From NCBI GenBank assembly GCA_025924845.1, contig JAICHN010000005.1, forward strand, positions 1 to 30,002: a stretch of DNA of 30,002 nucleotides, in the 5' to 3' direction. This document shows, one piece after another, positions 3,587-20,306 of this stretch (its first letter is position 1; the number at the start of each line of letters is the position of its first letter). Source of the DNA: Chloroflexota bacterium. GTDB taxonomy: Bacteria > Chloroflexota > UBA5177 > JANWHV01. The translations under genes were made by a program, and so were the position numbers. Below the pieces are notes generated by a model. That model was not told where the DNA came from. It searched no databases and worked only from the letters and a program-made list of their open reading frames with translations.

Positions 3587-3985
3587 CTACAGAACCATGT
3601 GATGGGAAAGGACTCTCTGGACAATATGCAAGACCTCGTCGTTCGCGGCGGGTACTTGCAGATAATCGCTGGCGCCGGCGCGTAAGCAGCCTATGATGTC
3701 TTCCGCCGCGCCAAAGCTGCTTACCACGACCATGGGCACATCAAGCTCAGCTCGGTGGACACATCCTATGACTCGTTCAGCGCCAGATCCCAGGCTCGCT
3801 TGATCCACGATGATGAGCGACGGGAGGGCCGACGCACCGGCAGTCGGGACGGCAAGGCTATGGATGGCCTCGCGATCCGAGCAGGCAAGCTGCACGATAA
3901 AGCCCGCGCGCCGGAGCAACCGAGCTAGGGTGACGCGTCGGTCCTCGTCGGCAGTGATCAACATGATCGCGGGAGTGTTTATCAC
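3587..3985 (-). CDS. Atypical stand-alone receiver domain
   Basis: A 132-residue protein with the alternating beta/alpha pattern of a response-regulator receiver and no output domain. The acidic pair (TADED) and the presumed phospho-acceptor Asp61 (SLIIVDQ) are present, as is the switch Ser89/Ser90 (VVVSSFG). The conserved Lys is missing: the usual Y-L-x-K-P is YLQVP, so Val111 occupies its place. Loss of this Lys often marks pseudo-receivers that are not phosphorylated normally. I chose GTG 3985, which has GGAGA 7 bases upstream. ATG 4021 is in frame and gives 144 residues, but its AAAGG lies only 2 bases away. No histidine kinase lies nearby. It may be a single-gene unit ended by the hairpin at 3551-3578. 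Confidence 0.8.
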   Translation of the reverse strand: MINTPAIMLITADEDRRVTLARLLRRAGFIVQLACSDREAIHSLAVPTAGASALPSLIIVDQASLGSGAERVIGCVHRAELDVPMVVVSSFGAAEDIIGCLRAGASDYLQVPAANDEVLHIVQRVLSHHMVL

Positions 3986-4140
3986 CAGTAGGTCTCCAAG
4001 GAGTCGTTGCCAGGCAACCATGGCCTTTTGACGGACGAATAGTCTGCCATGGACTATCCAATGACCGATAGTACGCGGGGCGCGTCTTCATCGCGTCTTC
4101 ACCATTTCGGGGGACGCAAAAACCTAATGGCGCTCGTTGG

Positions 4141-7134
4141 TCAAGAGCGGGTCAAGCGAGCATAGAGCGCCACGACGGATGGATCGGGCTCGACGCCCAG
4201 TTCGTCGCGCGCGACGCGGCAATGCTCGAGGTAGGTAGCGCGCACCGCTCCGCTATCCGCCATGGCGTGCGCGACCAGAAGGATCCTTCGCGCTATGGCC
4301 GGGTCGTCGGGGCTGAATTCCGCCTGTCGGCGCAGCAGCACAAGTGCCTCCTGTGCTCGGCCGGTCTGCTCCGCCGCCGTGGCGGCAAGCTGCAAGGCAC
4401 GGATCGCTTCACCGTTCCAATAGGCGCGGAACGGCGCCAGCCAATCGCCTTCAAGGTCCGCCATGAAAGGGTGCTCGAGAAGTGACAGCAATTCGGCGGC
4501 GGAGCGCTGCTCACCCGCCTGGACGCTTTTTATGCAGGCGTGCAAGCGATCAAGGTCGGACTGGTAGGAGGGGCAGAGATCGCCTGGCAGCAGCACGCCT
4601 CGGCCATCCTTCATTGGAAGTGTATGCCCCACGCCCAACTTCTTGAACATTTTCCGGAGGGCATAGAAAGTATTGCGAAGCGCCTTTCCGGCCTGCTCGC
4701 CGTCCAACTCCGGAAAAAGATCGAGGGCCAGGTCATCACGAGAAAAGCCGCGCTTGCCGTGTGCCAGGGCGTACCAAAACAGGGTACGGGCCTCCATATA
4801 GCGCCAGCCGTCTTTCCCCACCTCGGTGTCGCCGATCGTGGCGGTTGGGCCACCAAAAAAGCGGAGTACCACATGATGAGGCGGCGTGGCTGCCGCATCG
4901 TCCGCCGCGCAGCTGGTAGTATGCGGCGCAATCTGGGCGAGGATCGCCTCGTCCCACGGGGCAATAGGGTAGCGGCTCTTTCGCCTGAGTTCGGCGGCGA
5001 GATTGCGCGCCCGGTTGATGTCGCCCTCGACGGCAAGGATGCGGGCGAGGTGCGCTCGGGCATGCGCGGCAAGGGGACGGAAACCACGCGCTGATTCGGC
5101 GGCCGCCTCAAGTTGGAGGCGTGCCGATCCGATGGGCGACGAGAGCAGCGCGCGAGCGATCAGCGCGGCCGGGTGCGTGGCCGGCGCCCTGGCCAGTGCC
5201 TGATTGGCGGAAGGCATATCGTCCGCTTCCGCCAACAGCAGGCTGAGCATGGCATGAGCATGATCGCTCAGAGCGCGCGGGTCGTCGGCAGGCGCCTCGG
5301 CCAGTACCTTGTACAGCAACCTTACGGCCTCCGTACGCTCGTCGCGCGCCGCCAACACATCGGAGAGCGAGGCGAGGAGAAGCGGGCGAAGTCCGACTTC
5401 GGCTGCCCAGGGATGCCCAAGCGCTTCGCGGAGGCAGGCTGCGCTTTCGTCGTTACGGCCCAGAACGTGGAGGAGCATGGCTCGATTATTCGCGGTTTCG
5501 AGAAGGAAACCGATCTTCCCGCTTGCCCCAGCCAGCGCATACGCCTCGCCGTAGAGTCGTTCCGCGTCTTCAAGCCTGCCCATGCGTCGGCAGGCAAGCG
5601 CCAGCCCGTGCAAAGACAGTAGGCGGGTACCCGCCGCCACCAAAACTTCGGCTCCCGTCAGATTAAGCGTGGATAGGGCGCGCCGGAACGCCGCCGCCGC
5701 TCGCACCGGCTCGTCCCCCGCCAGCAAGAGTGTTCCCTCCACGGACAGTGCGTAGCAGCGCGTGCCCATCTCGAATGTGGCGTCCTCACCCCTGCTGACT
5801 CGCTTTACGCCGGCCAGTACCATTTGGAAGGCCCAGGGCCTCCGGCGGGCACGGGCGCACAGGCCCAGAAGGCGCAAGCGATCCACCTGCTCTTCCTGTC
5901 TTACCGGACGGATGGCGCGAATAGTTGCGTGGACCTTCGCGGCGCCCTCGCGGACCAGCGTACGGTTGGCCAAAAACAGAACCAACGACGGCGCGGTACG
6001 TAGGAGGGCGCCGGGGACGAGCGTCTCCATGGTCACCGCGTCGGCCTCTCGCTGATACCAGGCCGCGAGGCCCGCCCGGCCGGCGGCCCTTAGCGCCTGG
6101 TGGTACTCACGTTCGCGCGCGAACAGGACGGCGGCCGAACACGGGTCGATTGATTCCAGCGCCGCGCCCATGGCGGTGAGGGCAGCACGTCGGGCGGCGG
6201 GGTCCAACGCGGCCAGTGCGGCAATCCGGGCGTTGTCGCTGAGCCGACAGACCCCATGGTCAGCCAGTTCAAGGAGGACAGTTTGGTCGGCAAGGGTGTC
6301 GAGGGCCGTTTCTATCTCCTCCATGGGGAGGCCCGCGGCCTGAGCGAGTATGGATACGGTACAGGTCGGGGCGACGGCCAAGAGGTTGATCACCCGGCGC
6401 GGTAGGTCCGGAAGGCTCGGAAGGATTTCGTCGCGTAGCTCGGCCACCAGGGCCGAGTGGCCGCCAGGGCGGTACGATATGGGCCAGACGCCGCGGTCGG
6501 CGCCGGCGCGGGCCACAAAGCGCTCGCGCTCCTCCTCGTCGAGGCGCAACGACTCGGTGCCGAGCACCATAACCTGTCCCTGATCTTCAAGCCAGCGCCG
6601 CAACGCCGCGGGCGCGGCTCCTCCCTCACGCCCAGCCACCATCAGGCACACATGCCCTGGGAGATAACGGAGCAGCCGCCCGATCACGGCCCCAGCAGCG
6701 GCGGAGCGGTGCGCATCGTCCAGAATGAGCACCACGGGACCAGGGCGGCGGGCAAGGGCATCGATGATCGCGGCGAGCAGATGAGTTTCATCACCTGGGG
6801 GAATGTCGCCGATTACGGCGGAAGCGAGGCCCTCGAACAGCGAGCGCGTCGTTTCATCCAGCTCGTCGAGCGTATACCAGAGAATCGATCGCGGATCCAG
6901 GGATCGTGCGAACTCGGCCAGCAGGGTTGTCTTGCCGGCAAGGCCCGCCCCGATCACCTCCACCAGGCGAACGGAGCGACTAGCGCTCAGCAGTTCCGCC
7001 AAGCGTTCGGGACGGGGCACATGCCCACGCGGCAAGAGGGGGACGCGCGCCTTGGCGGCGAAGAGAGAGGCTAAACCGGTTCCGTAGTCCACGGCCGCTC
7101 CTGCAAGCACTGCACGATCTCCAAGGATGCGCAT
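4141..7134 (-). CDS. MalT-like STAND ATPase with C-terminal BTAD domain (transcriptional regulator)
   Basis: A 997-residue regulator. An N-terminal PLLPRGHVPRPERLAELL stretch (about 33-50) is typical of the linker before the ATPase in MalT/LuxR-type proteins. The NTPase follows, with Walker A GAGLAGKTT (62-70) and Walker B VVLILDD (134-140). A long alpha-helical, Ala/Leu-rich TPR-like region spans about 330-720. The end (about 745-997) has a winged-helix SARP-type DNA-binding part (GFSRDDLALDLFPELDGEQA, then KALRNTFYALRKMFKKLG), then the bacterial transcriptional activator domain with its final ARDELGVEPDPSV. There is no LuxR-type helix-turn-helix, so DNA binding must come from the BTAD-linked wing. 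Such proteins bind an inducer and oligomerise. ATG 7134 is chosen because homology begins soon after; it has only a weak ribosome site. In-frame GTG 7335 would overlap the divergent small gene. Confidence 0.85.
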   Translation of the reverse strand: MRILGDRAVLAGAAVDYGTGLASLFAAKARVPLLPRGHVPRPERLAELLSASRSVRLVEVIGAGLAGKTTLLAEFARSLDPRSILWYTLDELDETTRSLFEGLASAVIGDIPPGDETHLLAAIIDALARRPGPVVLILDDAHRSAAAGAVIGRLLRYLPGHVCLMVAGREGGAAPAALRRWLEDQGQVMVLGTESLRLDEEERERFVARAGADRGVWPISYRPGGHSALVAELRDEILPSLPDLPRRVINLLAVAPTCTVSILAQAAGLPMEEIETALDTLADQTVLLELADHGVCRLSDNARIAALAALDPAARRAALTAMGAALESIDPCSAAVLFAREREYHQALRAAGRAGLAAWYQREADAVTMETLVPGALLRTAPSLVLFLANRTLVREGAAKVHATIRAIRPVRQEEQVDRLRLLGLCARARRRPWAFQMVLAGVKRVSRGEDATFEMGTRCYALSVEGTLLLAGDEPVRAAAAFRRALSTLNLTGAEVLVAAGTRLLSLHGLALACRRMGRLEDAERLYGEAYALAGASGKIGFLLETANNRAMLLHVLGRNDESAACLREALGHPWAAEVGLRPLLLASLSDVLAARDERTEAVRLLYKVLAEAPADDPRALSDHAHAMLSLLLAEADDMPSANQALARAPATHPAALIARALLSSPIGSARLQLEAAAESARGFRPLAAHARAHLARILAVEGDINRARNLAAELRRKSRYPIAPWDEAILAQIAPHTTSCAADDAAATPPHHVVLRFFGGPTATIGDTEVGKDGWRYMEARTLFWYALAHGKRGFSRDDLALDLFPELDGEQAGKALRNTFYALRKMFKKLGVGHTLPMKDGRGVLLPGDLCPSYQSDLDRLHACIKSVQAGEQRSAAELLSLLEHPFMADLEGDWLAPFRAYWNGEAIRALQLAATAAEQTGRAQEALVLLRRQAEFSPDDPAIARRILLVAHAMADSGAVRATYLEHCRVARDELGVEPDPSVVALYARLTRS

Positions 7135-7322
7135 TCCACTACGTCGTGAATACACACTATAGCAGATGCAGGTTGGGCGGTCGATAGGGATCAACTCGTC
7201 TATACCTGAAATTGGCACCCCCCATTTCGTGAAGACGCAGTGAAGACGCGACCCCGTCATAGTAAATGGCGGCGTGACCGCATGGAGCGGCCGGCCGATA
7301 GGCAAAGGGAGTTTGGAATACC

Positions 7323-7433
7323 ATGACCCAGTCACTTCGGGCCCTTCGCGCTCTTATCTTGCTTCTGGCCCTGGTTTGCCTGGCAATCATCGTCGGTGCG
7401 CCCGAGAGCGTGCCGCTCGTTGGCCCCTTCTAA
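7323..7433 (+). CDS. Small single-pass membrane peptide (36 aa)
   Basis: ATG at 7323 opens a 36-codon frame. It has a basic N-terminus with two Arg (TQSLRALRALIL), one hydrophobic span of about 17 residues (LILLLALVCLAIIVG), and a short Pro-rich tail ending in VPLVGPF. AAGGGAG lies about 11 bases upstream. The stop is 2 bases before the ATG of the next gene, so translation could be coupled. I know no family for it. A real small protein or a coupling leader is plausible; chance is not excluded. Confidence 0.5.
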   Translation: MTQSLRALRALILLLALVCLAIIVGAPESVPLVGPF

Positions 7434-11502: not shown

Positions 11503-13350
11503 ATGGAGACGATACCGGCCGACTTCGATCCGCCGGGCCTGCGGCGAATGAGCCGCGGTCTCTACCTCTGCGAGGATATCTGCAATGTGTATCTGATTGT
11601 GCGCGGCAAGCGGGCGATCATGATCGACAGTGGGTCGGGGCTGGCCGCCGCGACCCTGGCATCGTTGGGGATCGATCGCGTGGACTGGGTATTGCACACC
11701 CACTTTCATCGCGATCAATGTGATGGGGCGGGGCGATTGGCCGCGCTGGGGGCCCGGATCGGCGCTCCGGCGGGCGAACTGGCGTATTTCGCGGCGACGG
11801 AGTTCTGGCAGACTCGGAACATCTTTGATAATTACGATACCTACAATGACTTCGCCGCGCCGCTTTCCCGCATTAACGTTGACCATGCGCTGGTCGACTA
11901 CGAGACCTTTGCCTGGGAAGATGTGAAGCTCCAGGTCGTGCCCGCCCCCGGCCATACTAAGGGCAGTATCGCCCTGGTCGGTGAGATCGATGGGCGACGG
12001 ATCGGCTTTTCCGGCGACGCCATTCATCACTCGGGCCGCCCCTGGACGCTCTTTGACCTTGAATGGGGCTACGGCGTCCAGGATGGAGTTGCAGCGCTCT
12101 CCTTGAGTTTGAAAACGCTGGCCGGCCTATCGCTTGATGTGATTTTCCCTTCCCACGGTGACCCCCTTACCACACCGTCGGCGGCCTGCGGTGCTTTGCT
12201 GGCGCGGCTGGACGGCTACCACCAATGGCTCGCATTTTCCAACGTTCTGGAACCGATGAGCGGTGCCCCGCTGCCGTCGGGCGGCGATGTCCAGTCCCTG
12301 ACGCCCCATTTGTGGATGAACACCGGTTCATTCGCCAATACCTATGCCGTAGTCACCGACGAGGGCAGAGCGCTGTTTCTAGATTACGGCTTCCCTTCGT
12401 ACGCCCACTTTTCGGCCAATCAGCGATTTGTCGAACATTCGCTCGATCAGCTTCGTACCCTTGCCGGCCTCAAAGTCATCGATGCCGTAATGCCCAGCCA
12501 CTATCACGACGACCATGTGTGCGGCCTTCAGTATCTTTGTGAGCACCATGGGGCGCGCCTCTGGGTCTTCGAGAACCAGGAGGATCTTCTCGCTCATCCC
12601 GAAGCCTATAAGATTCCGGGCCTCTGGCGCCGGCCCATGGTGCCCAGCCGTGTCTTCGCCGATGGCGAGACATTTCGTTGGGAGGGCATCTCCTTTACCG
12701 CCGCGAAGACGCCTGGGCATACTGAATATGCCTGCGCGATCGCCTTTGAACTCGACGGGCGGCGCATTGTCCACGCCGGCGACACGATTGGCCGTGGGGT
12801 CGGGGGCGTCACCTTACGCGGCCCGGTGTTCCAGAACGGGTTCAACCCAGGCGATTTTCTGGCGAGCGTGACGAGGCTGCGTGAATTTGAACCGGACTTC
12901 ATTCTGACCGGCCATTGGGGTGCCCTGCCGGTGGATGGGCCTTTGCTGGATGAGGCTCTCCGGCGCGCCCGGTTGCTGAACGACGTCATGTGGGATCTCA
13001 TTGCCGTACCCGAAGCGGCGGGCTTCAGCTTTGACCCAAATTGGGCGACGCTTTATCCGTACCAAATGACCCTCGTGGCGGATGAGCCGACCCCGATCGA
13101 AGTGCGTATCGTCAACCACTTATCGACCAATGCCGTGGCGACGGCGTCATTGCGGCTGCCGGCAGGCTGGATCTGCGATCCCCCGGATGGAGAGGTTACC
13201 ATCGCCCGGAGCGGTCGGGCCGCGCTGCCCTTCTTGGTGACGGCGCCGCCTCGGGCCGAAGGCGAGGAACGACATATGATCGCGGCGGAAATCACCCTGA
13301 ATGGGCGGTCGTATGGTCCGGTAGCCGAGGGAATCGCGGTGCTGGGCTGA
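11503..13350 (+). CDS. Tandem MBL-fold hydrolase fusion with C-terminal Ig-like domain
   Basis: A 615-residue protein with two metallo-beta-lactamase domains. Domain 1 (about 1-245) has THFHRDQ (66-72), GHTKGS (150-155), GDAIHH (171-176) and SHGD (217-220). The last His of the HxHxDH motif is Gln72, so one metal site may be weakened. Domain 2 (about 265-500) has the complete HYHDDH (333-338), PGHTEY with His406, GDTIG with Asp427 and TGHWG with His471. The end (about 520-615) is beta-rich with LRLPAGWICDPPDGEVTI, like an Ig-like NEW3-type domain. There is no signal peptide. The start has AGAGG 7 bases upstream. Single MBL proteins are 200-300 residues, so this is a double-length fusion. The substrate is unknown. 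Confidence 0.85.
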   Translation: METIPADFDPPGLRRMSRGLYLCEDICNVYLIVRGKRAIMIDSGSGLAAATLASLGIDRVDWVLHTHFHRDQCDGAGRLAALGARIGAPAGELAYFAATEFWQTRNIFDNYDTYNDFAAPLSRINVDHALVDYETFAWEDVKLQVVPAPGHTKGSIALVGEIDGRRIGFSGDAIHHSGRPWTLFDLEWGYGVQDGVAALSLSLKTLAGLSLDVIFPSHGDPLTTPSAACGALLARLDGYHQWLAFSNVLEPMSGAPLPSGGDVQSLTPHLWMNTGSFANTYAVVTDEGRALFLDYGFPSYAHFSANQRFVEHSLDQLRTLAGLKVIDAVMPSHYHDDHVCGLQYLCEHHGARLWVFENQEDLLAHPEAYKIPGLWRRPMVPSRVFADGETFRWEGISFTAAKTPGHTEYACAIAFELDGRRIVHAGDTIGRGVGGVTLRGPVFQNGFNPGDFLASVTRLREFEPDFILTGHWGALPVDGPLLDEALRRARLLNDVMWDLIAVPEAAGFSFDPNWATLYPYQMTLVADEPTPIEVRIVNHLSTNAVATASLRLPAGWICDPPDGEVTIARSGRAALPFLVTAPPRAEGEERHMIAAEITLNGRSYGPVAEGIAVLG

Positions 13351-13455: not shown

Positions 13456-14301
13456 ATGAGACGTGAACACGCATTGGCGCGTTTGCGCGGGCAAGCGGCA
13501 CTGGGCCGACCGATCATCGGGGCCGGCGCGGGCACTGGCCTATCCGCCAAATGCGCCGAGGCCGGCGGGGCGGATCTGATCATCATCTATAATTCGGGCC
13601 GCTACCGCATGGCGGGGCGCGGCTCTCTGGCCGGGATGCTTCCGTACGGCGACGCCAACGCGATCGTCATGGAAATGGCGGCCGAGGTCCTGCCCGTGGT
13701 CCGCGAGACGCCGGTGCTGGCAGGAGTGTGCGGCACCGATCCGTTCCGTCTCATGCCCGTTTTCCTGAAGCAGATCAAGGAGACCGGTTTCAGCGGTGTG
13801 CAGAACTTTCCCACGGTCGGCCTGTTCGACGGCGTCTTCCGTCAGAATCTGGAGGAGACCGGGATGGGCTATGACCTTGAGGTGGAAATGATCCGCCAGG
13901 CGCATGCCATGGATCTGCTGACCTGCCCCTATGTCTTCACTGAGGATGAGGCCAGAAAGATGACTGAGGCGGGCGCGGATATATTGGTCCCGCACATGGG
14001 TCTTACTACTGCCGGTCTGATCGGAGCCAGGACGGCGCTGAGCCTGGACCAGGCAGTGCGGAGGGTTCAGGCATTATGCGACGCCGCCAGGGCGATCAAT
14101 TCCGACATTCTGGTGCTGTGCCATGGCGGCCCAATTGCCGAACCAGACGATGCGGCCTATGTATTGCAACGCACCAGGGGCGTGGTCGGCTTCTTTGGCG
14201 CTTCCAGCATGGAGCGCCTGCCCACCGAGGTAGCCATGACCGCTAACATGCGCCGCTTCAAATCCTTGCCCCTCGCGAAAAGTGGAGAGCATAAACCATG
14301 A
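13456..14301 (+). CDS. Phosphoenolpyruvate-hydrolase-like TIM-barrel protein
   Basis: A 281-residue protein of the PEP-hydrolase-like family (Pfam PF09370 as I recall it), a TIM barrel once annotated as a signal transduction or dioxygenase protein. Highly conserved blocks are visible: [88 protein letters not shown] and [14 protein letters not shown]. The fold is near that of isocitrate-lyase/PEP-mutase enzymes. A physiological reaction is not firmly known. AAGGAGG lies 7 bases before ATG. Its stop overlaps the next gene start (ATGA), so the TIM barrel and the cupin are made together. In other bacteria a Tm-1-like ATP-binding protein often sits beside it; none is here. Confidence 0.9.
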
Positions 14302-14708
14302 AGCAGATAGAGCCGAACGGCCTTGCCACGCAGACCTTTGAGTGGGGCGCCATTAAGTGGTTTGTGGCACCTGGCGTTACCAGCGGGGCGGTGATGTCCT
14401 TTGGTGAAGTGGTGCTGCTGCCCGGCCTCGGCCACGAGCGGCACAACCACCCTGGGTCGGAGGAGATTCTTTACGTACTGTCCGGTGAAGGCTTGCAGAT
14501 GATCGATGACGGTGATCCGTTTCCGATCAGGGCGGGCGATGCCATCTACGTGCCGACCGCGGTCTATCATTCCACGCTGAACACGGGTTGGGCTCCGCTG
14601 CGTCTCCTTGCGGTGTACAATCCCGGCGGTCCCGAAAAAGTGCTCGAGACACTTCCGGACTTCCGCGAACTTGCCGCCGGCGCGCCGCCTCGCTGGCAGC
14701 GCGGGTAG
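14298..14708 (+). CDS. Single-domain cupin
   Basis: A 136-residue beta-barrel protein. Cupin motif 1 is [20 protein letters not shown] with the metal ligands His, His and Glu. Motif 2 is [16 protein letters not shown] with the final His. It can bind one metal and may act as an isomerase, dioxygenase or sugar-acid-binding protein. The ATG overlaps the stop of the PEP-hydrolase-like gene by 4 bases, implying translational coupling and a shared pathway. No signal peptide. I cannot assign a substrate. Confidence 0.9.
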
Positions 14709-14845: not shown

Positions 14846-17548
14846 TTAGGTTGAGACCCCGAGCGGACCGCGCGTAAGCTGAAAGTCCGTGTTGCCCTGA
14901 CCAAAGAGCTTGGGGACATAGCGGCGCGACGCGACACGGACCACAAGATCGAGCAACTCATTGGCCCAGTGCTCCGGTGCATCTTCAAGCACCAGATCCA
15001 GATCGACCCCGTAGCGGCGTGCCGTGGCGGCGTCGGTAGTCACTTGCAGGAGCGGCACCATGCGGTGACCAACGGCCGGATGACCGGTGATATTGGCCAG
15101 CAGCACCTGCGATCCGGTCGCCACCAATCCGGTCAGCGTCTCGACCCAGTGGTCGGTCGGCGTCTCCATAACGTGAAATCCTGGATCGGCCGCCGCCTGT
15201 CCGTAGGCCAGGGTAGGCGACAGTGGATGATCGCCTAATAGGGTGTGGCAAAAAGCCGGCATGGCAAGGAAGGTTGCGGTCTGGGGGACTACTACGGTTG
15301 CGCCGGCGCGGACCAGGGTGCCGGCCAGCGACGCCACTGCTGCCGCGGTATCGTTGCCCATCGGCCCAATTGACGATAGGCCCACGCTCAGGTAACGAAG
15401 CTCCGCGGGGGTAGGATGTAGGTCAGGCAATCCGGCGCTTGCCGCGACCGCCCAGTCCGTCGCCTTGGCCGTCACCGAGTCGATGCCGCCGTCCGCCTGA
15501 ACACTGGCCCAGCCGAAGCGGAGTGGATCGACGCCCAGATCCTGGAGGGTGAGCCGATAATAGTCGTTGTGCGTCTTCTCGCAGCCATGTTCCAGGAGGA
15601 GCGCGACCCCGACCAGGGGATTGGTAAGGTGACCCAGCACGGTGCGGGTGATGATCCCCTCGTTGGCGCCGCCCGCCGAGCCACAGCCTTCGGTATGCGG
15701 TAAGGCCACGAACCGCGAGAGGTGGCCACGGCCAACCCCCGTTTCGTTAAGGTGGTTGGCGATCTTGCGGGCAATCTGACCCGCGCAGAGACTGGTGGGC
15801 ATGATCAGTCCGAGCCGATCCGCGCTGTACCCGTCGCCTCGCCGGATGCCCTCGAAGGTCAAGCCTACCGGCATCACCCCTTGCGCGTTTACCGGCAAGG
15901 GCCGGCCCGAGGGGGCGGGCGCCTGCCGCAGGCGTTGGAGGTTGCCACGGTCACGCTGTTGCCAGTTTCGCCAGATCGAGACCTGCGAGTGGCCGGCGCG
16001 TTCGCCCACCGATCGCGTGCCCGAGGCCACCTGTACGGTCAAGTCCAGCGTGGCGGCGCCCAAGACGTCGAGCGGCGTGCCGTCCAGATAGGCGCCCGCG
16101 TTTACGTCCATTTCGCGTTCGAGCAGATGGTAGCGGCCGGATGTGGTGACGATCTTGATTGTGGGCACAAAGGGAAAATTGGTGATCGATCCGTTACCAG
16201 TGACAAAGAAAATCATGTTGCAGCCGGAGGCTACCTGGCCCGCGATACTTTCCAGGTCGTTGCCGGGACTGTCCATAAAGTAGTAGCCCGGCGCCGCCAT
16301 ACGCTCGGCGTAGTCGATCACGTAGTCCAGGCGCACCTGAGGATCGCGCTTCATGGCGGCGCCGATCGACTTAATGGCGATATTATACAGGCCGCGCAAG
16401 TTGTTCCCGCCCGAGGGATTGCCCTCGGCCGTTGCCCCGTGCCAACTTAGGCGTTCACGGAAGCGCTCGATTTTATCGAGGAACTGCCGTGCGGTGGGCA
16501 GATCGCGCACGTTCTGTAAGATGTACTCCTCGGCCCCAATTAATTCGTCGGTTTCGGCTAGATTGGCGGAGCCGCCGTAGCGAATGACTTCACGCGCTAC
16601 CCAGGCAGCCAATGGATTACCGGACACTCCGGAGAAGGCATCGGAGCCGCCACACTGCAGGGCGATCTTCAATGCGGAAAGCGGCTCCGAGCCGCGCGGC
16701 ATGGCATTGACTAACGGAACCCATTCTTCGAGAATTGCCTGGCCACGGGCCAGATTGGCCTGGAAGCCGTCGCTGAGACTGAGAAAGTAATGGGGAACGG
16801 CAGCGAGAGGATAATCGTGCTCTTCCATGAAGCGCTGGAGCCGCGCATTATTCACGGCCTCGTCGCCCTGGTCAACCGCCAATACGGCCCCGACGTTGGA
16901 GTGGACCATGAAACCGGCCAGAGTACGCAGCAGGAACTCGATGTTATTGGGCTCGGCGGCCCCGCCTCCCTCCGTGTGGGTAACGGCTACAATACCGTCG
17001 AGGTCGGCATGCCCGGCCGCCAGATGCCGAGCCTGGTCCTCGAGAGCCCTGGCAAACCCGGAACTACGCGAAGTGGTGCCAAGAATGACGATGAAGTTTC
17101 TGGTGCCTATGCCTCGGTTCGCGGGGCGGCGATATCCGGAAAAGTAGCGGGCGTCGGCATAGGGCGCCAACGGCGTGCCGGGCCGGAAGCGCGTCTCATC
17201 GAGCTGATACGTCTCCAGACGGTCGCGGAAGTTAGGGCCGTCCGGCAGATCGACGGAAACGCTGCGCTCACGGAGGGTCTGGAGGATCTTGGCGTTGCAG
17301 ACGTAAGCGCCGGGCGGGATATCGCGGCCGGCGATCCCGAACGGCAGACCCCACGACAAAACGGGTTCGCCCTTCGCAATCGGCACGATCGCAAATCGGT
17401 GTCCCTCCAGCACCGTACTGCCGAGCGTCATGGAGACGCCGTCCCGATTTACGAGGTCACCGGCTTCGAGCCGGGTGGTGGCGATGGCGGTATTGTCACC
17501 AGGGGCAGGGAGTCTGGCGACTTTCTCGAAAGCGTAATGTTCCGGCAC
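14846..17548 (-). CDS. Double-length altronate/galactarate dehydratase-like protein (UxaA family)
   Basis: A 900-residue protein; the family is normally about 500. Residues 18-100 form a SAF-like domain. Then come UxaA-type motifs: GYRRPANRGIGTRN (138-151), HTEGGG (191-196), LQCGGSDAFSGVSGNPLAAW (297-316), GNPSGGNNLRGL (376-387), MDSPGNDLESIAGQVASG (425-442), and a TIKI strand (463-466). A second lobe (about 570-900) repeats parts of the same fold: HTEGCG (618-623), LLEHGCEKTHND (651-662), GPMGNDTAAAV (728-738) and DHWVETLTGLVATGSQ (799-814). The family dehydrates aldonic and aldaric acids with a metal. GTG 17548 is the only start; AAGGA is about 11 bases upstream. It starts 36 bases after the dehydratase small subunit stop, so it is the third gene of that operon. 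The reaction is unproven; it may use an unusual sugar acid. Confidence 0.85.
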   Translation of the reverse strand: MPEHYAFEKVARLPAPGDNTAIATTRLEAGDLVNRDGVSMTLGSTVLEGHRFAIVPIAKGEPVLSWGLPFGIAGRDIPPGAYVCNAKILQTLRERSVSVDLPDGPNFRDRLETYQLDETRFRPGTPLAPYADARYFSGYRRPANRGIGTRNFIVILGTTSRSSGFARALEDQARHLAAGHADLDGIVAVTHTEGGGAAEPNNIEFLLRTLAGFMVHSNVGAVLAVDQGDEAVNNARLQRFMEEHDYPLAAVPHYFLSLSDGFQANLARGQAILEEWVPLVNAMPRGSEPLSALKIALQCGGSDAFSGVSGNPLAAWVAREVIRYGGSANLAETDELIGAEEYILQNVRDLPTARQFLDKIERFRERLSWHGATAEGNPSGGNNLRGLYNIAIKSIGAAMKRDPQVRLDYVIDYAERMAAPGYYFMDSPGNDLESIAGQVASGCNMIFFVTGNGSITNFPFVPTIKIVTTSGRYHLLEREMDVNAGAYLDGTPLDVLGAATLDLTVQVASGTRSVGERAGHSQVSIWRNWQQRDRGNLQRLRQAPAPSGRPLPVNAQGVMPVGLTFEGIRRGDGYSADRLGLIMPTSLCAGQIARKIANHLNETGVGRGHLSRFVALPHTEGCGSAGGANEGIITRTVLGHLTNPLVGVALLLEHGCEKTHNDYYRLTLQDLGVDPLRFGWASVQADGGIDSVTAKATDWAVAASAGLPDLHPTPAELRYLSVGLSSIGPMGNDTAAAVASLAGTLVRAGATVVVPQTATFLAMPAFCHTLLGDHPLSPTLAYGQAAADPGFHVMETPTDHWVETLTGLVATGSQVLLANITGHPAVGHRMVPLLQVTTDAATARRYGVDLDLVLEDAPEHWANELLDLVVRVASRRYVPKLFGQGNTDFQLTRGPLGVST

Positions 17549-17584: not shown

Positions 17585-18010
17585 TTAACCATGCTGCTCG
17601 GTACGCAGCAGATCGCCGGCCTGGTAGGCGTCGGCGGCCTGGCGCACGAAGCGAGCGTTGGCCGATGCAGAGTATGTCGTCTCCAGTTCATCGGCCAGAG
17701 TCGTGAGTTCGGCGTAGGTAGACCGCCGAGGCCGGAGCGCCTCATAGATTCGTAGCAACCGCTCATTGGGGATATCGGCCAACTCAGCGGCGCGGCGGAG
17801 ATTCTCCGCCAACTGTCCGTAGCCCGCTCCCTCGGCCACGCCGGCCTGGAGCAGCAGTGTCTCCCGATCTACCGTAAGGTCGTCTGAATCAATCTCTCCG
17901 GCACGCAGAGCTTCCAGAGTGATCTGGTCAAAGGGAATGCCGGTGCGCGAACGGAGCCGGTCGGCGGCGTGCTCGGCCAACGGGTAGCGCGTGGCATCGT
18001 GTGTACTCAT
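17585..18010 (-). CDS. pduE: B12-dependent diol/glycerol dehydratase, small subunit
   Basis: A 141-residue protein homologous to the gamma/small subunit of propanediol or glycerol dehydratase. Recognisable blocks are TRYPLAEHAADRLRSRTGIP, DQITLEALRAGEIDSDDL, LLQAGVAEGAGYGQLAENLR, RAAELADIPNERLLRIYEAL, RPRRSTYAELTTLADELE and ARFVRQAADAY. The subunit caps the large subunit and is needed for holoenzyme stability. ATG 18010 overlaps the stop of the fused large/medium gene (ATGA), so stoichiometric coupled synthesis is likely. Length is slightly below the 140-175 of enterobacterial PduE, because the N-terminal encapsulation-type extension is absent, which fits the absence of microcompartment genes here. 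Confidence 0.93.
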   Translation of the reverse strand: MSTHDATRYPLAEHAADRLRSRTGIPFDQITLEALRAGEIDSDDLTVDRETLLLQAGVAEGAGYGQLAENLRRAAELADIPNERLLRIYEALRPRRSTYAELTTLADELETTYSASANARFVRQAADAYQAGDLLRTEQHG

Positions 18011-20244
18011 GTCCAGGCCGCCTGCAACTCGACCGGCGGCGCTCCGGCTACGATCTCGCCCGTCTCGCGCAGATGCATCAGCGTAGTATGCACGATCAGG
18101 CGCAACCGCATCATGTTATCGATCGTGACCGGTACGGGGGCGGCGGGAAGCCCGGCGGCGTAGCGGGCGGCGTTCCGGCCAATCGCCCTATAGGACTGCA
18201 AGGTCAGGTTGGGCGCCTGCGGGAACAATTCCAGGTTATTGAGCGGCGCCAGGTCACGTTGGTGGATCACCGTGGTCCCCTTGGATTGGATGCCGATCGC
18301 CACTCCCGATCCGCTCAATTGCGCCGCCTGGTGCCCGATCACGGCGCAGTCGGAGGTATGGCGTAGGCGCACCACCCGTGCCTTAAGTCCCTCGTCGGCC
18401 ACGCCGGCCATCAACTCGCGGAGCACATCGGCATGGGAGAGGCCGGAGAGGGTGTACTGGATGGCGCAACCAAAGGCGGGCCCCACTCCAATCACGACCT
18501 CGCCGGATGCGCCCACGCCTGCCGTTCTGACCTCTCGCAAGGTCAGGCGTCGATCACCGGCATGCTCGGAAACCAGGTCGAGAGGCGCTTTTACCTGCGG
18601 CAGATCCTGTAGTTCGCGCCAACGTTCAGGGCTGAGTTGATAGCCGGTGCCGGGGCCATGGTACTGATTTGGATCATTGATCGCGCTGAGCACCTTGAAA
18701 TCGGCATCGAAGATTGCCGAAGGCTGAAGATAATCGCCGGCAACGCGCTGTCGCTGCAGCTCCAGAAGGCGGCCCGCGATCTCGGGGTAGCCGCGACGGT
18801 CCAGGGCGCGAATTACATCCACCACCGTTTGCGGACCGGCCAGGAATTGATCCGCCGCCGCCAGATCAGGAATCGGATCACGATCGGGCATATCGGCGCT
18901 GGAATGAGCGCAGGTGGCGGCCTCAACCTCCGCATCACTGATCGCGGGGAAGCCCAACTCCGCGTAAACAGCCTGGAGCGCGAGCGCTGCCCGACGACGT
19001 ACGTTGAGCACATCCTCCTCGCGTACCGGGCGCATTCCGCCGTCGACCTTCATGTCACGCTGGATCACCAACCAGTCGTCCAGATCCTCGGCGTCGAAGT
19101 TTCCGCCGCCGAACAGATTGTCCTCCTTAGGAATTGAACTGTAGCCGGAGGTAATGAAGTCGGTCCCCGGCAAGAGCTGGAGCATCAGTTTGGCGGCTTT
19201 GCGGAGGTCCGAGTGCGAGGACATGGCATCGTTTCCGGAGGCCACCTCGAGACCGAGCATGGCGGCCATTAGATTCTCGGCCAGCACAGCGCGAAAGCCG
19301 CCTGGCAACGAGCCGGGCAGCGCGATGCAGCTGATCGAGCCGTTCTGCACGCCCTGGCTTCCCGCCCCCTTGACCATCAGCAGGCAGCGCGCCTCCAGGT
19401 AGAGCATGGATTTGCCCTGAGCGTGGCCCATCAGCACCTCCGAGCCTGTCCCCGAGGAGAAGCGCACCTTGACGCCGCGGGAGGCATAGGCCGAGGCAAG
19501 GAATGCCTTGGACCATGGGGTGTCGTCGCCGTCATGAAATGCGGGTGCCGTCCCATACACGGAGAGCGTTTCGGCATAGGAAGTGAGGCCCTTAATCGCC
19601 AGGCGAAGGCTGACCGCCTCCTCCACGGCGCACTGGTTAAGCACCCCGCCGCGAGCGGACTGGCCACCAATCAGGACCGCCAAAGCGTTGAGCGGCGCAT
19701 TGCGGGCCACCTTTACGGTGGTTTCCTCCTCGGCAAAGCCGCGCCATGCCGCGTCGGCGGCATCGGCCGCCAGCAGGGCAGGATGCTCTTTCTGATTAGT
19801 CACGTGGGCCTGGTTGGCCGGAGTGCGACGGGCGCGCATCTTCTGCATCGCCATCATCATTTCGAGTACATTGAGCCGGCTGACTACGTCGAGCAGCTTG
19901 GCTGGGGTGCAGCCTCCCAAAAGGGAGACCAATTCGGCCCGCGGCGTCACCAGATCGACGAGCATGCGAGCGAGGTGCAGGGAATCGGTAGCCATGGCTT
20001 CGGCGGCGCGGCCGGGGTCGATAGCGTAGGCGGCGATAAAGTGGTCGATGGGTTCGAAGTCTTCGCGCCGCCGCCCATCCATCTCCACGATTCGGCCGTC
20101 CTCGATCCGTAGACTTGGCATCGGATCGAGAGGACTATCCATCGCGATGAGCCCCGCGTCCGGCAATTCATGGATGAAAGTCTCGCGGTTTATCTCGCGG
20201 TCCGCCAGAACGGCGAAGCGCTTGGAGCGCCGGCTGGGCTGCAT
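18007..20244 (-). CDS. B12-dependent diol/glycerol dehydratase, fused large and medium subunits
   Basis: A 745-residue fusion. Residues 1-545 match the large subunit: RSKRFAVLADREINRETF, EMMMAMQKMRARRTPANQAH, SYAETLSVYG, DGDDTPWSKAFLASAYASRG, GTGSEVLMGH and LPGTDFITSGYSS. Residues about 560-745 match the medium subunit (VVIGVGPAFGCAIQYTLSGL, RHTSDCAVIGHQAAQLSGSG, IGIQSKGTTVIHQRDL). From memory of the Klebsiella enzyme, the active-site residues His143, Glu170, Glu221, Gln296, Asp335 and Ser362 all map here with a constant offset of five (numbered from the first ATG, 20247). It converts 1,2-diols or glycerol to aldehydes by an adenosylcobalamin radical. Of two adjacent ATGs, 20244 has better spacing (6) from GGAGG. 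No reactivase, cobalamin or shell gene is in the window. Confidence 0.95.
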   Translation of the reverse strand: MQPSRRSKRFAVLADREINRETFIHELPDAGLIAMDSPLDPMPSLRIEDGRIVEMDGRRREDFEPIDHFIAAYAIDPGRAAEAMATDSLHLARMLVDLVTPRAELVSLLGGCTPAKLLDVVSRLNVLEMMMAMQKMRARRTPANQAHVTNQKEHPALLAADAADAAWRGFAEEETTVKVARNAPLNALAVLIGGQSARGGVLNQCAVEEAVSLRLAIKGLTSYAETLSVYGTAPAFHDGDDTPWSKAFLASAYASRGVKVRFSSGTGSEVLMGHAQGKSMLYLEARCLLMVKGAGSQGVQNGSISCIALPGSLPGGFRAVLAENLMAAMLGLEVASGNDAMSSHSDLRKAAKLMLQLLPGTDFITSGYSSIPKEDNLFGGGNFDAEDLDDWLVIQRDMKVDGGMRPVREEDVLNVRRRAALALQAVYAELGFPAISDAEVEAATCAHSSADMPDRDPIPDLAAADQFLAGPQTVVDVIRALDRRGYPEIAGRLLELQRQRVAGDYLQPSAIFDADFKVLSAINDPNQYHGPGTGYQLSPERWRELQDLPQVKAPLDLVSEHAGDRRLTLREVRTAGVGASGEVVIGVGPAFGCAIQYTLSGLSHADVLRELMAGVADEGLKARVVRLRHTSDCAVIGHQAAQLSGSGVAIGIQSKGTTVIHQRDLAPLNNLELFPQAPNLTLQSYRAIGRNAARYAAGLPAAPVPVTIDNMMRLRLIVHTTLMHLRETGEIVAGAPPVELQAAWT

Positions 20245-20306
20245 CATTCGCCTCCGCGCGGAACTGGAGTGGGTCGGATAACCGCCAGGCGTCCTGGTTG
20301 GTGTGG

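Follow-up and report, generated by a model that had tools for sequence, protein, structure and literature searches.

How can an enzyme of the UxaA/GarD family work if its conserved cysteines are divided between two copies of the family core? The question is raised by a gene in a 30,002-nucleotide stretch of Chloroflexota DNA (the window; contig JAICHN010000005.1), which codes for a 900-residue protein with two homologous lobes, the N-lobe and the C-lobe. This protein is likely a pseudo-homodimer of the UxaA/GarD core that arose by internal duplication and fusion, with one site formed by domain 2 of the C-lobe and domain 3 of the N-lobe. Judged from the sequences compared here, one working site is probably assembled jointly by the two copies, and the four conserved cysteines are probably iron-binding.

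The family and its fold are already known; in databases, proteins of this kind carry the name 'UxaA family hydrolase' or 'altronate dehydratase'. The galactarate dehydratase GarD of E. coli (PDB 6u7l) and the D-altronate dehydratase UxaA belong to COG2721 (Pfam PF04295 and PF20629) and have four cysteines in one chain, a set that the GarD sequence carries in our alignment, with the domain-2 cysteines in TSVHC, YGC, and GLGC and the fourth in CGGSD. In the window protein, however, a second copy of the core is fused and the cysteines are divided 1 + 3. According to a study of D-arabinonate dehydratase, only Cys134, Cys173, Cys208, and Cys276 of that enzyme are conserved in the UxaA/GarD superfamily, with the exception of sulfolactate sulfo-lyase (Watanabe 2019, PMC6336799). 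These residues are taken here as the equivalent set, matched to the motifs by their order and the GarD alignment and not by the enzyme's own sequence. No published account of a split site in the UxaA/GarD family was found, subscription journals being mostly outside the literature searched, nor was one found of the separate complementary proteins described below.

Two copies of the UxaA/GarD core

An earlier note on this DNA had proposed an internal duplication, and the lobes are indeed homologous. Their profiles align over 304 columns at 21% identity (HHalign probability 99.2, E 7.1e-20). The whole protein scores 140.6 bits for GD_AH_second and 288.3 bits for GD_AH_C (Pfam cut-offs 27.3 and 26.8), with two matching stretches for each, and the separated N-lobe and C-lobe each clear both cut-offs. 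Because the profiles align and each lobe passes on its own, the duplication is real. Structure prediction, which the note had recommended for the protein and its halves, agrees: both lobes adopt the three-domain GarD fold in the predicted models, and the full-length single-chain model reaches a predicted template-modelling score (pTM) of 0.91. A search of a viral fold library gave no meaningful match. An assembly artefact or frameshift was rejected as the source of the long reading frame, because the protein aligns end to end with others of 899-904 aa. The four closest relatives among the matches listed are 68-78% identical, and two of these (P0002 and P0005) are from Chloroflexota metagenome-assembled genomes.

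Complementary loss of cysteines

The family alignment comprised 199 sequences (198 distinct), namely the 120 best of 4295 matches (window protein included) and 79 open reading frames (ORFs) from the window and 78 of 80 loci, L038 and L057 having yielded none; two of the aligned relatives are shorter (702 and 853 aa). Cysteine is invariant in exactly four columns, with C299, C588, C622, and C656 each present in 199/199. A fifth cysteine, C84, is retained in 165/199. The N-lobe counterparts of the last three invariant positions, residues 161, 195, and 229, are cysteine in 0/199, CGGSD occurs exactly once per protein in 199/199, and none of the relatives has a cysteine at C-lobe residues 722-731. 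Since the four positions are invariant, their N-lobe counterparts never cysteine, and CGGSD always single, the complementary pattern is not due to chance. Thus, neither copy contains the four cysteines of the family; the full set is found only across both, as one in the N-lobe and three in the C-lobe of every relative.

The earlier note had located six motifs, all of which are where it placed them (HTEGGG at residue 191, DQGDE at 226, CGGSD at 299, HTEGCG at 618, EHGCE at 653, and GPMGND at 728), and had suggested that three motifs were lost in complementary fashion. The division is genuine and the homologues conserve it, but its units are three plus one cysteines and not three motifs. HHalign pairs HTEGGG with HTEGCG and DQGDE with EHGCE; in addition, C588 of PTSLC, which the note had missed, lies opposite R161 of the N-lobe, and therefore the complementary set consists of 1 + 3 cysteines. 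GPMGND had been regarded as the equivalent of CGGSD. Its location is right, but the C-lobe is gapped at the CGGSD columns, which are partly deleted, and only G728 of the six residues is well conserved (196/199). The segment around NPSGGNN is absent from the C-lobe.

The remaining motifs follow the same division in a chosen set of 20 fused and 26 canonical proteins. Those of domain 2 (xxCxx, HxxGC, GxGCE) are retained in C-lobes and lost in N-lobes; those of domain 3 (CGGSD, NPxxGN, DxPGxD, TGxGS) are retained in N-lobes, slightly changed in single proteins, and lost in C-lobes. Consistently, the fraction of columns conserved at ≥98% in the 199 sequences is 0.39 in N-lobe domain 3 and 0.09 in C-lobe domain 3, and 0.26 in C-lobe domain 2 and 0.18 in N-lobe domain 2. 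H191 and the adjoining TEG of the N-lobe remain conserved across the alignment, so N-lobe domain 2 is still under some constraint. Short contigs account for many of the 120 best C-lobe profile matches; of nine inspected on longer contigs, seven carry part of an N-lobe, and P0172 and P0220, which start near the lobe border, are possible split genes.

With the window protein as query, fused proteins were found in 17/246, 4/194, and 4/400 sampled genomes of three phyla, some of them repeating loci of the earlier set, and all 25 are split 1 + 3. A fourth phylum (249 genomes) yielded no more than the Paenibacillus gene already known. For comparison, 27/27 complete single-lobe proteins, canonical and not selected by motif, have the three domain-2 cysteines, CGGSD, and NPxxGN in one chain. 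These controls were retrieved through their similarity to the N-lobe (E 1e-60), so that divided single-lobe proteins without the SAF-like domain would tend to be missed. A 562-aa single-lobe protein (L198_1) was left out of both counts, L212, in two pieces through an in-frame TGA, was left out of the 27, and L176, a 243-aa C-lobe fragment at a contig end, was also omitted.

The same division in separate genes

Single-lobe proteins show the same complementary division without fusion: A-types carry the three domain-2 cysteines, and B-types carry CGGSD and NPTPGN. The strongest parallel to the fused protein is provided by the tandem pairs L128 and L129 in genomes G260 and G302, sampled from the phylum of a Chloroflexi contig (L007). 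Each pair consists of genes for 387-388 aa on the same strand, separated by 143 and 221 bases, respectively. The first gene product retains VVCAN, HPHGC, and GLGCE, has CGGYD, and lacks NPxPGN; the second lacks all three domain-2 cysteines and retains CGGSD and NPTPGN. The two are about 60% identical. Among the 120 best relatives of the second product (P0241-P0360) are 56 canonical proteins, 51 B-types, 12 A-types, and one other (P0333) in which one of the three cysteines is replaced. Thus, the three cysteines are kept together or lost together in 119/120, two of the B-types being gapped at one cysteine column.

For a census of 41 genomes of the class of G260 and G302, A-types were defined by HxxGC and GLGCE without CGGSD or NPxPGN among matches at E 1e-60; some read CGESD or CGETD. 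Both types occur in 6 genomes, A alone in 2, B alone in 2, and neither in 31, of which 6 carry a canonical gene. Genome G097 has two other tandem paralogues (L130:3231-5698) with CGHSD and CGYSD and without HxxGC or GxCE, which are tentatively labelled SuyB-like. In SuyAB the split runs between a SAF-like part and the core. This heteromeric sulfolactate sulfo-lyase of the same superfamily is the one excepted from the conserved cysteines in the D-arabinonate dehydratase study (PMC6336799).

Trees were built after types had been set by motif, with the motif columns removed. For 21 B-type, 16 A-type, and 17 canonical rows, B-types required three changes in 200/200 bootstrap trees, and A-types likewise (5%-95% range 3-3). 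The approximately unbiased (AU) test rejects a single clade of all B-types (p 4e-61), of B-types minus P0300 (p 0.0013), and of all A-types (p 0.0017). With 107 rows it also rejects a grouping of N-lobes with B-types (p 0.0017); as these trees read, B-types and N-lobes are of separate origin. A branch with support 90 (not starred; 107 rows) separates the N-lobes and C-lobes from the remaining rows, as expected of an internal duplication. The C-lobe branches are long in that tree, and placements there are therefore weak. Two single proteins stand out. P0254, with CGDSD and NPTPGT, lies beside the A-types and is perhaps a half-way state toward the A-type loss; P0300, with the domain-2 cysteines lost and CGGSD retained, stands apart from the other B-types and is perhaps a further separate loss.

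A probable single site between two copies

If each copy had its own site, both sites would be dead, since one copy lacks the cysteine trio and the other lacks CGGSD; the strict retention of complementary halves points instead to a site between the copies, as the earlier note had suggested, and its retention in both the fused family and the separate genes supports this reading. In an ancestral homodimer, domain 2 of each subunit would have bound iron together with domain 3 of its partner, so that the dimer had two equivalent sites. Duplication and fusion would have been followed by decay of the site between N-lobe domain 2 and C-lobe domain 3, and the site between C-lobe domain 2 and N-lobe domain 3 would have been retained. 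Domain 2 is reportedly the dimer interface of GarD, which would fit a site between domain 2 and domain 3 of different copies. C588, C622, C656, and C299 would then together hold one iron centre for α-proton abstraction and subsequent β-elimination of water from a sugar acid. This is the chemistry proposed in the family in the D-arabinonate dehydratase study, which argues that four cysteines would hold a rubredoxin-type iron, reports Cys-to-Ser variants, and describes the enzyme, C785_RS13685, as a brown protein with iron-type electron paramagnetic resonance (EPR) signals (PMC6336799). C785_RS13685 is single-lobed and, unlike the window protein, has all four cysteines in one chain.

Alternatively, the site might be shared between two molecules, N-lobe domain 3 of one 900-aa chain meeting C-lobe domain 2 of another. 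A-type and B-type proteins would need such an inter-chain site, but fusion fits a fixed pair and the pTM of the single-chain model suggests well-defined packing of the lobes within a chain, so we regard this arrangement as improbable for the fused protein. Equally doubtful is a new activity, in which the metal or cluster bound by the C-lobe trio has a different purpose and the CGGSD/NPSGGN domain of the N-lobe performs metal-free chemistry. The strong divergence of C-lobe domain 3 with the loss of its NPSGGN-flanking segment, and neighbour genes that name no substrate, would be in line with this idea. So would the failure to reach the NCBIfam galactarate dehydratase equivalog TIGR03248 (185.5 vs 730.85 bits), although the canonical proteins P0312, which matches only 6u7l among solved structures, and L133 miss this cut-off too. 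However, the split matches the canonical four-cysteine set exactly, without a fifth invariant cysteine, and recurs in unfused proteins of separate origin.

Several observations count against, or limit, the case for a site shared between the copies. The co-occurrence of A-types and B-types (Fisher p 1.6e-4) comes from a test that ignores relatedness, a lone partner is present in 4/10 genomes with either type, and the two lie on different contigs in 4/6 genomes with both. A grouping of C-lobes with A-types is not rejected (p 0.10; AU, 107 rows), and the number of independent origins is therefore not fixed. In a covariation analysis of the 199 sequences (mutual information with average-product correction, effective sequence number 78), which did not resolve the interface and speaks neither for nor against a shared site, pairs between N-lobe domain 3 and C-lobe domain 2 are below expectation among the top pairs; those between N-lobe domains 2 and 3 are lower still, and SAF-domain and C-lobe pairs dominate. 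Finally, A-types retain the cysteine within CGGYD or CGGLD, so that their domain 3 loss is not of the cysteine itself. This cysteine may thus have a role apart from the trio, but the resulting proposal of an iron held by the C-lobe trio and a non-cysteine ligand, with C299 for substrate binding only, is very hard to credit given CGGSD in 199/199 and no cysteine at the matching C-lobe stretch, and its site would still be shared between the lobes.

Table 1. Features of the two-lobed gene, its neighbours, and the tandem single-lobe genes (window positions unless a locus is named).
Feature	Position	Strand	Basis or remark
Whole gene, two-lobed UxaA/GarD-type protein	14846..17548	-	GTG start, 900 aa; ORF, Pfam, end-to-end homologues of 899-904 aa
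SAF/beta-clip-like N-terminal domain, residues ~6-111	17216..17533	-	
N-lobe domain 2, residues 138-279	16712..17137	-	Pfam PF04295 138-279; degenerate, without the three family cysteines (161, 195, 229: 0/199)
N-lobe domain 3, residues 290-529	15962..16681	-	Pfam PF20629 290-529; retains CGGSD, NPSGGN, DSPGND, TGNGS; most conserved domain
C-lobe domain 2, residues ~576-712	15413..15823	-	PF04295 51.8 bits in C-lobe alone; retains PTSLC, HTEGCG, EHGCE (C588, C622, C656 199/199)
C-lobe domain 3, residues ~713-893	14870..15412	-	PF20629 36.8 bits; degenerate, CGGSD and NPSGGN lost, NPSGGN-flanking segment deleted (HHalign gap); least conserved of domains compared
C299 (CGGSD), sole N-lobe cysteine of the set	16652..16654	-	199/199
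C588 (PTSLC)	15785..15787	-	199/199
C622 (HTEGCG)	15683..15685	-	199/199
C656 (EHGCE)	15581..15583	-	199/199
HTEGGG, residue 191, N-lobe relic of HxxGC (H191 retained, Cys gone)	16961..16978	-	Lobe alignment, relatives
DQGDE, residue 226, N-lobe relic of GLGCE	16859..16873	-	Lobe alignment, relatives
NPSGGNN, N-lobe domain 3, equivalent of canonical NPxPGN	16400..16420	-	Motif comparison
GPMGND, residue 728, C-lobe remnant of CGGSD region	15350..15367	-	Lobe alignment, relatives
Diol/glycerol dehydratase small subunit, overlaps fused ORF	17585-18010		Pfam
Diol/glycerol dehydratase, large and medium subunits fused, 746-aa ORF	18007-20247		Pfam
Tandem A-type then B-type UxaA genes	L128:3197-5673		
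Tandem A-type then B-type UxaA genes	L129:3027-5578		

Genomic context

The gene is preceded by a B12-dependent diol/glycerol dehydratase, and the Pfam matches of the scanned window ORFs name no reactivase. Farther upstream on the same strand lie genes for a DHDPS-family aldolase or dehydratase and a sugar-type ABC transporter, and the wider window encodes an HpcH/HpaI aldolase, an SMP-30 gluconolactonase-like protein, a cupin, a LacI regulator, and a family 4 glycosidase. This context suits carbohydrate catabolism and names no substrate, and the neighbours vary among loci. In a scan of 94 of 191 operon-like ORFs around 79 sequences (78 loci and the window), 19 of which have no such neighbour, no Pfam family exceeded 6/94, so that again no substrate is named. 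The families encountered, each in at most 6/94, include aldo/keto reductases, short-chain dehydrogenases/reductases, PhyH, amidohydrolases, enolase-type MR_MLE proteins, FAH, and 2-hydroxyacid dehydrogenases. The diol dehydratase of the window does not fall into any of the 45 largest ORF clusters.

Three further loci of the window were recorded. A 615-aa protein (11503-13350) has two metallo-beta-lactamase-fold stretches (two matches to Pfam Lactamase_B), a phosphoenolpyruvate hydrolase-like protein (PF09370; 13456-14301) adjoins a cupin (14298-14708), and a 1064-aa AAA/BTAD regulator-like protein (4141-7335) lies near a response-regulator-like ORF (3587-4021).

Implications for the UxaA/GarD family

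In the D-arabinonate dehydratase study, the iron of the family is placed by EPR and conserved cysteines (PMC6336799). The natural complementary splits amount to a genetic experiment that would show which half-site is contributed by each subunit, and they predict an inter-subunit site for GarD and UxaA. We lean toward the view that the entire family holds its iron at a subunit interface, where domain 2 of one chain meets domain 3 of its partner. Complementary halves of the site could on this view be lost, which would have happened at least three times, once in the fused protein and two or more times in two-gene pairs; every such loss would have produced an obligate asymmetric enzyme in which one site is live and the other dead. 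The case also shows that strict complementary degeneration recurred within one family, in a fusion and in separate genes. Neither a lone A-type or B-type gene nor one lobe of a 900-aa protein by itself should be annotated as a complete altronate dehydratase.
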